Positions 47,903 to 54,986 of a stretch of 64,000 nt of DNA are shown here, in pieces. The DNA comes from Leptolyngbya sp. NIES-2104 (GTDB lineage: Bacteria; Cyanobacteriota; Cyanobacteriia; Leptolyngbyales; Leptolyngbyaceae), in the NCBI RefSeq assembly GCF_001485215.1, contig NZ_BBWW01000001.1:4464001-4528000 (forward strand). The letters run 5' to 3'. The notes below the pieces were generated by a model that was not told the DNA's origin, ran no database searches, and saw only the letters and a list, made by a program, of their open reading frames with translations. Each line of letters opens with the position of its first letter. Positions within the stretch are counted from its first letter, which is position 1. Both the position numbers and the translations under genes were made by a program.

Positions 47903-48121
47903 ATGCCCGCTAAGTTTCGATTCCTGCAAGTTTCAACCCCGATCGCGAATATTCAGGTTGAAAGTGATACCGCCATTATCTCTGAAGGGTTGATCGCGAT
48001 CGCGCTTCCACTCGGATTATTTCTCGGCGTGCTTGTGCGTAAAACTCAACAACGTCGTCTTCTGAGATACCAGATTGAACTCCTCGAACGACTTTGGCAG
48101 AAAAGCAGCGATCGTGTTTAG
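47903..48121 (+). CDS. Small single-span membrane protein upstream of the rhodopsin
   Basis: 72 aa. One membrane helix (about 27-44, GLIAIALPLGLFLGVLV) preceded by a polar N-terminus and followed by a strongly basic tail (RKTQQRRLLRYQIELLERL). GGAG is 7 bases before the ATG. No known family. It ends 118 bases before the rhodopsin start on the same strand and could share its transcript. Confidence 0.55.
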   Translation: MPAKFRFLQVSTPIANIQVESDTAIISEGLIAIALPLGLFLGVLVRKTQQRRLLRYQIELLERLWQKSSDRV

Positions 48122-48239: not shown

Positions 48240-48950
48240 ATGACACAGCAAGCTTGGCTCTGGATCGGTTGTCTTAGTATGGCAGCGGGAGCAATTTTCT
48301 TCGGATTTGGAGCAGAACGCGCTAAGAACGATCGCTGGCAAGTTGTTTATGTTCTGAACTTCTTTATTTGTGCGATCGCGTCGGTGCTCTATTTAGCGAT
48401 GACCCAGCGGCAAGGATTTAGCGTGATCTTCGATCGACCGTCGTTTTGGGTGCGCTATGTGACGTGGACGTTTTCAACGCCGTTAACGATCGTACTGCTG
48501 AGCTATTTAGGCAGAACGAAACCGATTATCCTGGCAAGTATGGTCGGTGCGGATGTTTTGATGATTGCGACCGGGTTCGTGGCGGCGATTTCTCCCAAAC
48601 CGATTACAAATCTTTGGTACATCGTAAGCTGTGGGTTTTATTTGGGATTGGCGTATTTGTTGCTGAAACATTATCGAGGGCAAGCGATCGAGCATTTCCC
48701 GCGTTCTAAATCGGTTTTTAATCGATTGCTTACAGTGCACTTGGTAATCTGGTCGCTGTATCCGGTGGTTTGGATTCTAGCGGGAACTGGAATCAATGTG
48801 ATCAACAGCACGACGGAAACAGCGTTGTATATGATTCTGGATGTCTCTGCAAAAGTGGGATTTGGATTTTTAGCGCTGAGTTCGTTGCAGAAATTAGAGA
48901 AGGCGGGAATTCAGGAATTGGGATTCGATCGCGTTCCCGTTTCGCAGTAG
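48240..48950 (+). CDS. Microbial (type 1) rhodopsin with a Thr-Ser-Leu helix C motif
   Basis: 236 aa, seven membrane helices. The retinal Schiff-base Lys205 is in LDVSAKVGFG (Asp201 is the bacteriorhodopsin Asp212 equivalent). Helix C reads RYVTWTFSTPLTIVLL: Arg72, Thr75, Ser79 and Leu86 stand where the proton pump bacteriorhodopsin has Arg82, Asp85, Thr89, Asp96. Thr at the acceptor position is the hallmark of chloride pumps (halorhodopsins; cyanobacterial ones are TSD). Trp76 and Trp178 of the retinal pocket are kept. Hence probably a light-driven anion pump or an anion-sensitive photoreceptor. It ends 1 base before the convergent urtE stop. Confidence 0.92.
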   Translation: MTQQAWLWIGCLSMAAGAIFFGFGAERAKNDRWQVVYVLNFFICAIASVLYLAMTQRQGFSVIFDRPSFWVRYVTWTFSTPLTIVLLSYLGRTKPIILASMVGADVLMIATGFVAAISPKPITNLWYIVSCGFYLGLAYLLLKHYRGQAIEHFPRSKSVFNRLLTVHLVIWSLYPVVWILAGTGINVINSTTETALYMILDVSAKVGFGFLALSSLQKLEKAGIQELGFDRVPVSQ

Positions 48951-48951
48951 T

Positions 48952-49704
48952 CTACACCGCCAAAAATCGCTGAACCACTTCATTGCTCAATTCTTGGGTC
49001 GAACCCGATGCCACGATCCCGCCTTTCTGCATCGCATAGTACCAATCGGCTTGGCGCACAAAATGTAAATGTTGCTCAACCAACAACACTGAAATGCCAG
49101 TCGTCTCAACAATCCGACGCACAGCGGCTTCGATTTCGAGAATGATCGAAGGTTGAATTCCTTCGGTCGGTTCATCGAGTACCAGTAAGCGAGGTTGACC
49201 CATCAGAGCACGAGCGATCGCTAATTGTTGCTGTTGTCCTCCGCTCAAATCGCCGCCCATCCGTCCTAACATCGTCTTCAGCACCGGAAATAGCTCGAAA
49301 ATTTCATCGGGAATTTCAGCGCTTTTATTCCGTTTCGGTAAGGCTTCGAGTCCAAGAATCAGATTTTCTTTAACCGTGAGCCGTGGGATCACTTCTCGTC
49401 CTTGGGGAACGTAGCCAATTCCCAGACGGGCGCGTTGATCGGGCGATTTAGTCGTGATTGGTTGACTTGCGAGAACAATCGAACCCGATCGCGGTTTTAA
49501 CAATCCCATGATCGTTTTGAGCAACGTCGTTTTACCGACACCGTTTCGCCCGATTAAACAGACCATTTTGCCCGGATGAACGGTCATATCTACGCCGCGA
49601 AGAATGTGACTTTCTCCGTAATACACATTCAGACCGGAAACTTCTAGCATTGGATCTGCTGTACTCGATCCCATTGGTTCTAGCGTGGTGTTGGTATAGC
49701 TCAT
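48952..49704 (-). CDS. urtE: Urea ABC transporter ATP-binding protein UrtE
   Basis: 250 aa. LivF-type ATPase: Walker A GRNGVGKTT, signature LSGGQQQQ, Walker B LLVLDEP, and the branched-chain-type EGIQPSIILEIE. Last gene of the urtABCDE operon; 6 bases after urtD. With UrtD it powers uptake of urea at low concentration. Confidence 0.93.
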   Translation of the reverse strand: MSYTNTTLEPMGSSTADPMLEVSGLNVYYGESHILRGVDMTVHPGKMVCLIGRNGVGKTTLLKTIMGLLKPRSGSIVLASQPITTKSPDQRARLGIGYVPQGREVIPRLTVKENLILGLEALPKRNKSAEIPDEIFELFPVLKTMLGRMGGDLSGGQQQQLAIARALMGQPRLLVLDEPTEGIQPSIILEIEAAVRRIVETTGISVLLVEQHLHFVRQADWYYAMQKGGIVASGSTQELSNEVVQRFLAV

Positions 49705-49710
49705 AGTATT

Positions 49711-50466
49711 CTACGCTGCGTGATCTTCTTGTTGTCCGAGATATACTTCGATGACTCGCGGATCGTTTTGCACTTCGTCCATTGTGCCTTCGCACAAAAC
49801 ACTTCCTTGGTGAAGCACAGTAACTTGTCTCGCGATTTGTCGAACGAATTCCATATCGTGTTCGATCACGATGATCGAATGACTTTCCGCCAGTGCTAAA
49901 AGTAAATCTCCGACTTTCTCAGTTTCTTCATCGGTTAATCCCGCGACAGGCTCATCGACGAGAAGCAAATCAGGGGATTGAGCCACTAACATTCCAATCT
50001 CTAAGCGTTGTTTCTCACCATGAGACAGCAATGCGGCTTTGATATCTGCTTTGAGATCTAGCCCGATCGTTTCGAGTAATCCCGCGACAGTCCGCTGTTC
50101 TGCGACGGGACGTTTACCCACGATCGCATTCCACACCGTCTTATTCCGATTGCACGACAGTTCCAAATTTTCGCGCGGGGTGAGATTGAGATAAACACGC
50201 GGCGTTTGAAACTTTCGCCCCACTCCCAACTGAGAGATCTGATGCTCTTTCAAGCCTTTGGTATTTCGACCTTTGAAATGAACTGTCCCGATCGTTGGTT
50301 GCGTTTTGCCTGTGATCGTATCGAGAAAGGTCGTTTTTCCGGCTCCATTCGGACCAATAATCACGCGCAGTTCGCCTTCGTTCAGGTCGAAATTGAGATT
50401 ATTAATCGCCTTGAAGCCATCAAAACTAACCGTCAGATTTTCGATTTGCAAGATTTTCCCGCTCAT
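49711..50466 (-). CDS. urtD: Urea ABC transporter ATP-binding protein UrtD
   Basis: 251 aa. LivG-type ATPase: Walker A GPNGAGKTT, signature LSHGEKQR (a form typical of UrtD), Walker B LLLVDEPVAGLTDEE. The start at 50466 is preceded by GGAAG and lies within the end of urtC (41-base overlap), so translation of the two is coupled. Confidence 0.93.
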   Translation of the reverse strand: MSGKILQIENLTVSFDGFKAINNLNFDLNEGELRVIIGPNGAGKTTFLDTITGKTQPTIGTVHFKGRNTKGLKEHQISQLGVGRKFQTPRVYLNLTPRENLELSCNRNKTVWNAIVGKRPVAEQRTVAGLLETIGLDLKADIKAALLSHGEKQRLEIGMLVAQSPDLLLVDEPVAGLTDEETEKVGDLLLALAESHSIIVIEHDMEFVRQIARQVTVLHQGSVLCEGTMDEVQNDPRVIEVYLGQQEDHAA

Positions 50467-51601
50467 ATTGCACTTCCGGATCTTCTTCTAAGCTTGGATA
50501 AGTTGCGAGTTTGCGCTTGCCCAGGAACTTCGATCGCACAAGGTCTACGCCTTCATTGCGAATCCAGCCAATGATTCCACCCGGCAAGACCGTCACCACC
50601 GTTAAGAACAGCGCACCTTGGAAAAAGTACCAGATCTCTGGAAACTTTTCGCTAAAAAGGCTCTTAGCAAAGTTCACAATCAGCGTTCCAAGAATTGCAC
50701 CAACCAAACTGGCACGACCCCCGACCGCCACCCAGATCACCATCTCGATCGAGAATGCAATATCCATCGCTTTCGGTGAAATGATCCCAGACTGTACCGT
50801 AAACAGTGCGCCCGCAATCCCCGCCAGTGCTGCCGAAACCGCAAACGTGAGCACCTTAAAGCCCGTCGGATCGTATCCCGAAAATCTCAGCCGAGGTTCA
50901 TCATCCCGAACCGCGACTAAAAGCTTTCCAAGTTTGCCGCTAGTCAACCACCGACAGAGCGCGTAAGCTCCCACTAAAAACCAAACTGTCGTCATGTAGA
51001 ATATCCACTGCATGGAAACATCACCGACAGTCTGACCAAAGAAAGTCGCCGTATCGGTCTTCAATCCATTCGTTCCATTGATCAGTTTTTGCTGACCGTT
51101 GAAGAAATTGAAGAACACGATCAAAGCAGCTTGCGTCAGGATCGAAAAGTAAACGCCTCGAATCCGGTTGCGAAACACTAAGTAACCCAGAATTGCGCCC
51201 ACAATTGCAGGCAGAGCCACGATCGCAAATAGCGTAAACGGAAACGAATAGAACGGAATCCAAAACGCCGGAAGCTGATTCACACCATACAGCGTAAAGA
51301 AATCCGGTAGCTGTCCAGCGGGAATCTGCAACTGAAGAAACATTGCGATCGCATATCCACCCAAAGCAAAGAACAATCCATGTCCCAAGCTCAAGATTCC
51401 GGTGTAGCCCCAGATCAAGTCAATTCCAAGTGCTACGATCGCTAATGCTAAAAAGCGCCCTAGCAAGTTCACCCGAAAGGCTTGACCGATTCCAATCAAA
51501 ACATTCGGCACAATAAAGATCAGCGCAAGCGCGATCGCGACAACAATGGCAGCTTCGACTAAGATCGATCGCTGCTTATACCAAGGCGCTCCTGTGTTCA
51601 C
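50426..51601 (-). CDS. urtC: Urea ABC transporter permease UrtC
   Basis: 391 aa. LivM-type permease with about ten membrane helices; LGIDLIWGYTGILSLGHGLFFALGGYA and RDDEPRLRFSGYDPTGFKVL are typical. The C-terminal extension (about 360-391, RKLATYPSLEEDPEVQYERE) is cytoplasmic. 12 bases after urtB. Confidence 0.93.
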   Translation of the reverse strand: MNTGAPWYKQRSILVEAAIVVAIALALIFIVPNVLIGIGQAFRVNLLGRFLALAIVALGIDLIWGYTGILSLGHGLFFALGGYAIAMFLQLQIPAGQLPDFFTLYGVNQLPAFWIPFYSFPFTLFAIVALPAIVGAILGYLVFRNRIRGVYFSILTQAALIVFFNFFNGQQKLINGTNGLKTDTATFFGQTVGDVSMQWIFYMTTVWFLVGAYALCRWLTSGKLGKLLVAVRDDEPRLRFSGYDPTGFKVLTFAVSAALAGIAGALFTVQSGIISPKAMDIAFSIEMVIWVAVGGRASLVGAILGTLIVNFAKSLFSEKFPEIWYFFQGALFLTVVTVLPGGIIGWIRNEGVDLVRSKFLGKRKLATYPSLEEDPEVQYERENLANRKSDG

Positions 51602-51613
51602 GATAATTTCTCC

Positions 51614-52768
51614 CTAAGCATCCACGGTTCTTCCTTTCTGCGGGAATAGTCCAGCCGGACGGAATTGCAGAAACACAATGATGAGTGCAAATACCATCAC
51701 TTTTGCCATGCTGATCGTCGAGAAAAATCGGAAGAATTCAGACAATGGCGGAAAGAAGCTAAACGCATCGACTAACACATTCGATCCAATGATGTAGCTG
51801 GCAGTCCCGATCGCGAGTGCTGCAATGATGCTACCAACTAATTTTCCAACTCCGCCCACAACGACGATCATGAACGTATCCACGATGTAGTTCTGTCCGG
51901 TATTGGGTCCAACTGATCCGAGTAAGCTTACGGCACAACCTGCAATTCCAGCGAGTCCCGACCCGATCGCAAATGCCAACGCATCAACTTTCTGAGTCGG
52001 AATGCCCAAACACGCACTCATATTTCGGTTCTGGGTCACGGCTCGAATTCGTAAGCCCCAAGGCGTTTTATTCAAGAACCAGAACACACCGAGCACCGCA
52101 GCGATCGTCAAAAAGATAATGAAAATCCGGGCGTACGAGAACTGAGTTCCCGCGATCGACAATCCGCCCCGCAACCATATTGGAGCGGTCACATCCACGT
52201 TTTGCGCTCCGAACCAAGGTTTAGTCGCAGCTAGTCCGTAGAGTTGTCCAACAGTGTTACTCACCGCGAGTGCAACCGCAGCCGAGAGCGGTAACAGAAT
52301 AGCGATCGACCATCCTCGAATCTGCTCATAGTTCGGACGACGCGCCAAAATCCACATCGCGCCAAAGTACAAAGCACAGAACACAGCAATCAGAGTGACT
52401 AGTTGCCAACTAATACTTCGTACCAACTGTTGCAAAATCAAGCTCACACCCCAAGTTGCCAGCAAGGTTTCGAGCGGTCGCCCATAGAGATAGCGAATGA
52501 CTCCCCGCTCTAGAATGATCCCAAATATTGCAGTGACGATAAAAGCAGCAATCAGTGCAATGAAAATGTAAGCATCAAACAAAGGCGTACCTTTGAGCGC
52601 ATTTTGTATCACGAAGGTCGTGTAAGCACCGAGCATCATAAACTCACCGTGTGCCATGTTGATCACACCCATGAGTCCAAATACGATCGCTAACCCCAAT
52701 GCCGCAAGCAACAACACCGAGCCGACGCTAATCCCACTGAAAATTCCGTTTAAGAGTCCTGCTAGCAA
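51614..52768 (-). CDS. urtB: Urea ABC transporter permease UrtB
   Basis: 384 aa. LivH-type permease: GLMGVINMAHGEFMMLGAYT and RNMSACLGIPTQKVDALAF are the conserved blocks. Forms the channel with UrtC. Separated from urtA by 85 bases carrying two competing hairpins, which may lower expression of the membrane genes relative to the binding protein. Confidence 0.93.
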   Translation of the reverse strand: MLAGLLNGIFSGISVGSVLLLAALGLAIVFGLMGVINMAHGEFMMLGAYTTFVIQNALKGTPLFDAYIFIALIAAFIVTAIFGIILERGVIRYLYGRPLETLLATWGVSLILQQLVRSISWQLVTLIAVFCALYFGAMWILARRPNYEQIRGWSIAILLPLSAAVALAVSNTVGQLYGLAATKPWFGAQNVDVTAPIWLRGGLSIAGTQFSYARIFIIFLTIAAVLGVFWFLNKTPWGLRIRAVTQNRNMSACLGIPTQKVDALAFAIGSGLAGIAGCAVSLLGSVGPNTGQNYIVDTFMIVVVGGVGKLVGSIIAALAIGTASYIIGSNVLVDAFSFFPPLSEFFRFFSTISMAKVMVFALIIVFLQFRPAGLFPQKGRTVDA

Positions 52769-52799
52769 AGCTTTCTCCGTGTTTTGCTAAATGAACCAA

Positions 52800-52849
52800 C
52801 TCGTAGGGTTAATCAAATTAGCCCTACGAGATAGCGTACTAATTTGATT
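52800..52849 (-). promoter_or_regulatory. Two mutually exclusive hairpins between urtA and urtB
   Basis: CTCGTAGGG (52800-52808) can pair with CCCTACGAG (52822-52830), and AATCAAATTA (52811-52820) with TAATTTGATT (52840-52849). The arms interlock, so only one stem can form fully at a time. No T-run follows; a stabiliser or switch rather than a simple terminator. Confidence 0.6.
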
Positions 52850-52853
52850 GGCT

Positions 52854-54173
52854 CTAGGTGGTCTTGAACTTACCGCCTTTTGCAGGATCAGACCAATCAC
52901 AAGAGAAGCCCTTCGTTTCTGCAACGAATTGGTTCCACGGCACAGGTTTCACCGCTTCCTTGGACTCAGACACAATCCTGAATAGTCCATCTGCTGCGAC
53001 TTCACCAATCCGAACGTATTTCGATAAGTGGTGATTCGAGTTCAATGTCACCTTACCTTCAGGCGCATCGAAAGTCTGTCCGTAAGCTGCGGTTTTCACT
53101 TTATCGAGATCATCCGCAGTACCCGCTTTTTCAACTGCTTGCTTCCACAGATAAACCATGATGTAAGCCGCTTCCATCGGGTCATTCACCACGCGATCGT
53201 TGCCGTATTTCGCCTTGAACGCTTCGACGAATTTCTTACTTGCAGGCGTATCCACGGTTTGGAAATAGTTCCACGCCGCATAGTGACCTTTGAGATAGTC
53301 AACCCCGATCGCTTTGACTTCTTCTTCCGCGATACTGACCGACATCGACGGATACTTATCAGGAGACAATCCCGATGCTTGCAACTCTTTGAAGAATGCC
53401 ACGTTGGTGTCACCGTTCAAGCTGTTGTAGATCACGCCACCGTTCGGCATGGCTTGCTTGATCTTGTCTACTACAGGCTTGACTTCGGTGTTACCTAGAG
53501 GAATGTAGTCTTCGCCCTTAGTGGTTCCACCTTGTGCGCCCAATTGTGCCTTGATAATGGTGTTTGCGGTACGAGGGAAAACGTAATCTGATCCCACCAA
53601 GTAGAAGTCTTTGCCTTTGTTCTTCAGCAACCATTCAACTGAAGGTTCAATCTGTTGGTTCGGGGCTGCACCCGTGTAGAAGACATTGTTCGAGCATTCT
53701 TGTCCTTCATACTGCACCGGATACCAGAGCAGGTGTTTCTTCGACTCGAACACAGGCAGAACCGCTTTACGACTGGCAGAAGTCCAACAACCAAACACAG
53801 TCGCAACTTTGTCTTGGTCGATCAATTTCTTCGCTTTTTCCGCGAAGGTGGGCCAATCGGAGTTTCCATCTTCAACGACGGCTTCGATTTGTTTGCCCAA
53901 CACGCCGCCTGATTTGTTAATTTCTTCGATCGCTAATTGTTCGGCATCAACGACACTCTTTTCAGAGATCGCCATCGTGCCAGAAAGCGAGTGCAGAATT
54001 CCGACTTTAATCGTGTTACCCGATGCAGTGGTGTTAGCAGCAGGAGAAGCAGCAGGAGCACTGCTCGTTGATCCCGTGGTTCCTTGCGGCGGAGTACAAG
54101 ACTTTAACAGAATGCTCCCCGCAGCGGTGGAGCCAAGGATGATAAATTCGCGCCGTCCAAATGATTTTGTCAT
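52854..54173 (-). CDS. urtA: Urea-binding protein UrtA
   Basis: 439 aa from ATG 54173. The N-terminus has a twin-arginine-like motif GRREFIILG and a lipobox ending in Cys26 (ILLKSC), so probably a Tat-exported lipoprotein. The periplasmic binding fold follows: VGILHSLSGTMAISEKSV, DWPTFAEKAKKLI, VEWLLKNKGKDFYLVGSDYVFPRTAN are UrtA hallmarks. First gene of the urea operon, with an NtcA-type promoter about 120-160 bases upstream. Confidence 0.94.
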   Translation of the reverse strand: MTKSFGRREFIILGSTAAGSILLKSCTPPQGTTGSTSSAPAASPAANTTASGNTIKVGILHSLSGTMAISEKSVVDAEQLAIEEINKSGGVLGKQIEAVVEDGNSDWPTFAEKAKKLIDQDKVATVFGCWTSASRKAVLPVFESKKHLLWYPVQYEGQECSNNVFYTGAAPNQQIEPSVEWLLKNKGKDFYLVGSDYVFPRTANTIIKAQLGAQGGTTKGEDYIPLGNTEVKPVVDKIKQAMPNGGVIYNSLNGDTNVAFFKELQASGLSPDKYPSMSVSIAEEEVKAIGVDYLKGHYAAWNYFQTVDTPASKKFVEAFKAKYGNDRVVNDPMEAAYIMVYLWKQAVEKAGTADDLDKVKTAAYGQTFDAPEGKVTLNSNHHLSKYVRIGEVAADGLFRIVSESKEAVKPVPWNQFVAETKGFSCDWSDPAKGGKFKTT

Positions 54174-54293
54174 GTCCAAAAGGTGTAGTGACGTGTTGAA
54201 CCAAGCCAAAGCGATCGACAATCAAGAGACTGTCTCTGCAAAGGAGCGATCCGCAGATTTATCGCAGTTTCAAGCTTCAGTAATATCTCTGAA

Positions 54294-54335
54294 ATACTAG
54301 GGCTTGGATTTTCAGCGAATTGTATACCAAGTCAC
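54294..54335 (-). promoter_or_regulatory. NtcA-type promoter of the urt operon
   Basis: Read leftward: GTG-ACTTGGTA-TAC (54335-54322) fits the NtcA box GTA-N8-TAC with one change, and TAGTAT (54299-54294) fits a -10 box, exactly 22 bases apart, the usual spacing of NtcA-activated promoters. urt genes are known NtcA targets in other cyanobacteria. Confidence 0.7.
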
Positions 54336-54353
54336 TTTTTAATGATTGTTTTG

Positions 54354-54986
54354 TTATTTTTGCTTCAGATTCAGTCCTGCGTAGGTTGACACAAACTCAA
54401 TGATTTTATCTAAACCGTGACGATTTTTGAGATTTGTAAAGATAAATGGTTTTTCTCCCCGCATTCGTTTTGCATCTCGCTCCATGACTTGCAAGTCTGC
54501 GCCGACAAAGGGAGCTAAATCAATTTTGTTAATGACTAAAAGATCGGACTTCGTGATACCCGGTCCACCCTTGCGCGGGATCTTATCACCACCAGCAACA
54601 TCAATTACATAAATATTGAGATCCACCAGTTCCGGGCTGAAAGTTGCTGCTAAGTTATCTCCGCCACTTTCCACAAAAATCAGTTCTAAGTTTTGGAATC
54701 GTTTTTCGAGTTGCTCGATCGCGGCTAAATTCATCGACGCATCTTCGCGAATTGCCGTATGGGGACAGCCTCCGGTTTCCACTCCAAGAATGCGATCGGG
54801 ATCAAGCGCTTGCGATCGCACTAAAAATTTCGCGTCTTCCTGGGTGTAAATGTCATTGGTGACCACGGCGATTTGATAGCGATCGCGCATTGCTTTACAA
54901 AGTGCATCGACTAACGCCGTTTTACCAGAACCCACAGGACCCGCAATCCCGACTCGGAAAGCAGTAGAAACTAGAGTTTGTGTCAT
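54354..54986 (-). CDS. ureG: Urease accessory GTPase UreG
   Basis: 210 aa. GTPase that drives nickel insertion into urease: P-loop [23 protein letters not shown], metal-binding [13 protein letters not shown] and NKIDLAP. No other urease gene is within the window. Its position just beyond the urt promoter links urea uptake and hydrolysis, though it has its own start region facing the AraC gene. Confidence 0.95.

Follow-up and report, generated by a model that had tools for sequence, protein, structure and literature searches.

The rhodopsin gene of Leptolyngbya sp. NIES-2104 raises the question of what ion, if any, is moved by a retinal protein whose helix C carries Thr, Ser and Leu, with neither the proton acceptor nor the proton donor of a bacteriorhodopsin (BR)-type pump. 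We examined the gene within a 64,000-nt stretch of the forward strand (here, the window), corresponding to positions 4,464,001 to 4,528,000 of contig NZ_BBWW01000001.1 in assembly GCF_001485215.1. The analysis establishes that the gene is intact, conserved and under purifying selection, and it establishes the family, motif, predicted fold and clade of the product. The open reading frame occupies exactly 48240-48950 on the plus strand, runs from ATG to TAG with no internal stop, and encodes 236 amino acids. Its product matches the Pfam domain Bac_rhodopsin (PF01036) with E=3.1e-47 and 161 bits, against a cut-off of 24.6, and this is the sole PF01036 match in the genome (6.39 Mb, 99.96% complete). 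Together with the seven predicted helices and the invariant K205, this domain places the protein among the type 1 rhodopsins.

Strong purifying selection acts on the gene: pairwise dN/dS values within the genus are 0.04-0.08, although these are rough, as most pairs have a dS close to 1 or higher. The intact reading frame and this selection rule out a pseudogene. A mobile or viral origin was also rejected: a pattern method gave no relative in viral contigs, and plasmids carry only distant bacteriorhodopsins. No convincing promoter- or terminator-like site was seen near the gene. Just upstream lies a 72-aa open reading frame (47903-48121), which has no Pfam hit and a 73% identical match in the same place in one relative.

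We next turn to the residues themselves. A preliminary description, made from the letters of the sequence, had reported a helix C with Thr, Ser and Leu at the donor site, and both the codons and an ungapped alignment bear this out. The stretch R72-YVTWTFSTPLTIV-L86 (48453..48497, plus strand) reads R72-Y-V-T75-W76-T-F-S79-T-P-L-T83-I-V-L86. In this stretch, T75 (ACG, 48462-48464), S79 (TCA, 48474-48476) and L86 (CTG, 48495-48497) correspond to BR positions 85, 89 and 96, giving the three-letter motif TSL, and T83 corresponds to BR position 93. A misaligned third position, which the same description had named as a way for the motif to fail, is ruled out, as the helix is ungapped and the Leu is common to 12 further distinct relatives. 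Further along the plus strand, the segment from the counterion D201 to the retinal Schiff-base lysine K205 spans 48840..48854, with codons GAT starting at 48840 and AAA at 48852. In a 41-protein alignment, D201, K205 and the Trp residues W76, W171 and W178 are invariant, in agreement with the earlier reading that the Lys, the Asp and the pocket Trp residues are kept. Its prediction of a rhodopsin that would bind retinal is likewise supported.

To which family does such a protein belong? The closest matches in the PDB are two cyanobacterial anion pumps, SyHR (E=2.4e-81) and MrHR (E=4.9e-80), with cyanorhodopsins next and far weaker at about E=1e-43. Searching the PDB with a 41-sequence profile gave the same ranking, with SyHR and MrHR at E of about 1e-114, far above all others. 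An AlphaFold2 model (pLDDT 92.6) superimposes on MrHR and SyHR with an rmsd of 0.5-0.7 A and a TM score of 0.92-0.93, at 54-55% identity. We also built a maximum-likelihood tree without the motif and clade-diagnostic columns and without archaeal halorhodopsins. In this tree, one branch (starred, support 100/97) divides 47 cyanobacterial halorhodopsins (CyHRs), with the window protein nested among them, from cyanorhodopsin and archaeal proton pumps. This is the placement in the MrHR/SyHR family that the preliminary description had proposed to check. Taken together, the reading frame, the PF01036 domain, the match to SyHR (PDB 7zou) and the predicted structure identify the gene at 48240..48950 as an intact CyHR of the TSL subtype.

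The comparison with the characterised members can be made residue by residue. SyHR of Synechocystis sp. PCC 7509 (PDB 7zou, motif TSD) is 55% identical to the window protein, with an rmsd of 0.7 A, and shares with it the T and S of the motif, R71, H167, T183, E193, D201 and K205. From SyHR to the window protein, however, D85 changes to L, L82 to T, N104 to D, T137 to L, S204 to A, S212 to A and T198 to M, and R161 near the end of helix F is replaced by Asn. MrHR of Mastigocladopsis repens (PDB 6xl3 and 6k6i, also TSD) is 54% identical, with an rmsd of 0.6 A and a conserved anion site and His, but differs in having Asp rather than Leu as the third motif residue and Glu182 where the window protein has Thr. 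Archaeal halorhodopsins (TSA) share the Thr/Ser chloride site and a non-acidic third residue (PMC9617919), yet they form a distant clade and are without the CyHR histidine, the counterpart of H167 being Thr218 in NpHR.

The preliminary description had held a cyanobacterial TSL form to be undescribed, and here it was wrong: TSL is named among the CyHR motifs in PMC5877348 (2018) and PMC9617919 (2022), and published descriptions allow TSV, TSL and TSI. To gauge how common such motifs are, we sampled CyHRs by searching about 980 genomes and scanning genome contigs once. The sample comprises one CyHR fragment and 45 distinct full-length proteins, of which 19 are TSD, 13 TSL, 6 TSI, 2 TSV, 2 TST, 2 SSI and 1 TTV. 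Since the published descriptions already allow TSV, TSL and TSI, and since 26 of the 45 lack the third-site Asp, this residue is a common CyHR trait and not a defining one. In the two SSI proteins, Ser replaces the first Thr, and neither SSI nor TST appears in the CyHR motif lists of the literature searched. One TSD CyHR on a long contig has an in-frame TAA in the homologous region near the C-terminal end and may be a truncated or decaying copy.

Each of the 13 TSL proteins is from a different genome, and these genomes represent five genera and three families. Six of the proteins, with the window protein among them, cluster at 88-100% identity within the window genus; the other seven, one of which is from the same genus, are 64-71% identical to the window protein. 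All 13 form one clade, which has support of 97/98 and 96/97 in two trees and branches close to the base of the CyHRs. The TST proteins join it in the best tree with weak support (46/0 and 81/0), so we do not claim that TSL and TST are monophyletic. By parsimony, presence or absence of the third-site Asp changes at least four times on the CyHR tree.

Is this protein then a pump, and for what? We consider it probable, at roughly 70%, that the window protein is, by analogy with its relatives, an SyHR-type pump that uses light to move anions (chloride) inward. It has what a halorhodopsin chloride site calls for, namely a neutral Thr or Ser at BR85 (T75) and Ser or Thr at BR89 (S79). In addition, the anion-site and exit residues R71, T74, S78, H167, E193, D201 and K205 (SyHR numbering) are all unchanged. 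These include the helix F histidine H167 (48738..48740, plus strand), which occurs in every CyHR sampled and is the proposed anion-exit residue (PMC11995866, PMC9617919).

One alternative is that the protein pumps protons outward even though position 85 is Thr. T74D alone suffices to make MrHR pump protons, and a proton-pump-like Asp, D105, is kept on helix D. The Asp at BR85 of CyR- or BR-type outward pumps is nonetheless absent: T75 offers no proton acceptor and L86 no donor, and those natural members of the CyHR clade that have been characterised with any transport are anion pumps. We therefore regard a proton pump as highly improbable, in line with the earlier argument from the motif that Thr at the acceptor site excludes a normal one.

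For the anion pump, we infer retinal binding, Cl- as the substrate, the direction of transport, the exit route and slow late steps from characterised relatives. All-trans retinal would be bound to K205, and in the dark state Cl- would sit beside the protonated Schiff base, where T75 and S79 would hold it close to R72 and D201 and it would stand in for the missing carboxylate counterion. Photoisomerisation would carry Cl- past the Schiff base; it would then leave on the cytoplasmic side via the region of H167, which is required for efficient transport in SyHR (PMC11995866), and fresh Cl- would enter from the extracellular basin. L86 would take the place of an Asp lying off the exit route. As to the source of the chromophore, the genome has three carotenoid oxygenases, one of them with the Synechocystis apocarotenoid-15,15'-oxygenase as its best PDB match (E 4.6e-65), and an enzyme of this kind is a plausible candidate for supplying retinal.

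The most conspicuous departure from the predominant TSD motif is L86, where the Asp at BR96 is missing. Loss of this residue (D85 in SyHR) would be tolerated because it lies off the exit route, the anion leaving via H167. PMC9617919 calls D85 "not conserved within the family" and notes that substitution of its MrHR equivalent had little effect on the photocycle. Moreover, the Myxosarcina sp. GI1 protein (TTV), which has no third-site acid, pumps Cl- in E. coli (PMC7979833). On these three grounds, the missing acid is by itself no argument against pumping. The BacHR of Cyanothece sp. PCC 7425 (TSV), likewise a cyanobacterial halorhodopsin without the acid, bound retinal (566 nm) and showed no transport in E. 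coli; by analogy, loss of the acid may sometimes accompany loss of pumping. Both of these proteins have Val at the third site rather than Leu, and the TTV and TSV proteins that represent these motifs in our tree, which are other than the two published sequences, lie outside the TSL clade and have Leu at BR93 and Asn at BR115.

Setting the 13 TSL proteins against the 32 CyHRs in the tree that are neither TSL nor TST, we looked for columns with no residue shared between the groups. At SyHR L82 (BR L93), Thr is found in 13/13 TSL and Gln in 2/2 TST proteins, versus Leu in 32/32 others. The D85 and L100 columns have Leu and Met, respectively, in the TSL clade; T137 is Leu in TSL and Met in TST; and A105 is Val or Ile in TSL, as in most of the outgroup. 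At SyHR N104 (BR D115), Asp is found in all TSL and TST proteins, including D105 of the window protein (48552..48554, plus strand, helix D), and in every outgroup proton pump, versus Asn in all 32 other CyHRs. Thus, while the preliminary description was right that the third site holds no acidic residue, the protein does have a helix D Asp with no counterpart in TSD members. The idea that the acid relocated to helix D to make up for its loss from helix C, with N104 to D as a gain, is ruled out by the outgroup, as all of its proton pumps have Asp; for the same reason, Asn at BR115 is the derived state of the other CyHR branch. Together with the tree, these sequence comparisons suggest that TSL and TST branched early, retaining some proton-pump-like residues.

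The Thr at BR93 bears on a further alternative, that the protein is a slow-cycling anion-binding light sensor or a degenerate pump, in which this Thr and the lost cytoplasmic Asp prolong the late intermediates. BR L93 contacts the retinal 13-methyl group, and its replacement by Ala or Thr slows N and O decay (Subramaniam 1991, as cited in PMC3411786), and SyHR L82 shifts with retinal in the trapped K state (PMC9617919). With the fixation of T83 across the TSL clade and the silent TSV relative, these data give the alternative some weight. The TSL clade also departs from the tested pumps at the pocket and cytoplasmic positions 82, 85, 104, 137 and 204, which speaks against a pump, as does M198 (48831..48833, plus strand), a residue private to this genome that lies in the extracellular anion entry basin where all other CyHRs compared have Thr. 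Against this alternative, however, no transducer, kinase or other partner gene adjoins the rhodopsin; none of the anion-site and exit residues has changed, and purifying selection maintains the gene; and L93A bacteriorhodopsin retains its proton transport efficiency (PMC3411786). We therefore think a sensor or degenerate pump improbable. In the chloride pump that we favor, T83 near the 13-methyl group would probably slow the late N/O part of the photocycle. Our literature search, which covered few subscription papers, found no functional assay of any TSL protein.

Another possibility is that an SyHR-type pump carries sulfate or another oxyanion inward as well as halides. The key site is T183 (48786..48788, plus strand; Thr183 in SyHR, Glu182 in MrHR), which separates sulfate from chloride-only pumping (PMC9525653, PMC9617919). 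MrHR, which hardly pumps sulfate, has Glu here, and E182T raised its sulfate pumping about 11-fold. The sulfate-linked SyHR residues T183, E193, R71 (here R72) and H167 are all present in the window protein, which has no Glu at this site. Thr is nevertheless the commonest state at 183 among the sampled CyHRs and hence not diagnostic; T137, which makes a second hydrophilic cavity in SyHR, is Leu, the basin-lining T198 is Met and SyHR R161 is Asn. Given how frequent Thr is at 183 and the differences at T137 and T198, sulfate transport is a tentative possibility, which we judge rather unlikely.

The rhodopsin gene and urtE, which belongs to a urea ABC transporter cluster (urtA-E and ureG; region 48240-54986), are arranged tail-to-tail, and a TrkH/TrkA potassium-uptake pair is found upstream of the rhodopsin on the opposite strand. 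The urt neighbor is kept in 5/5 genomes of the genus in which this orthologue has enough flanking sequence. It is also present in two TST genomes from another order, in which ureG-urtABCDE follows downstream of the rhodopsin gene. True urt genes were found in none of the 28 other CyHR neighborhoods looked at. The convergent orientation argues against a shared rhodopsin-urt operon in the window genus, and the adjacency may reflect an inherited position or coincidence. Separately, one membrane protein family, which we take to be DevC-like, recurs near CyHR genes in several genomes.

A broader conjecture is that TSL and TST proteins are a functionally distinct early CyHR branch. Here the ancestral Asp at BR115, the Thr or Gln at BR93 and the absence of the cytoplasmic Asp would give a slow photocycle and a different color or range of substrates (sulfate or another oxyanion, for instance), coupled in some genera to the urea-transporter locus. 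Gln at the BR93 site, the state of the two TST proteins, makes proteorhodopsins blue-shifted. We offer this conjecture as speculative and consider it unlikely as a whole.

As of 2022, experimental characterisation within the clade was limited to two TSD proteins (PMC9617919). Our finding adds no new kind of rhodopsin; the protein belongs to a TSL sub-branch with testable differences from the characterised CyHRs. One hypothesis holds that the cytoplasmic Asp prevents chloride backflow in cyanobacterial chloride pumps (PMC9617919), and a natural clade without this Asp, along with the other, separate losses elsewhere on the tree, allows a direct test of that hypothesis. With Thr or Gln fixed at the BR93 site, which affects color and kinetics, these proteins are also candidates for slow or color-shifted chloride pumps.
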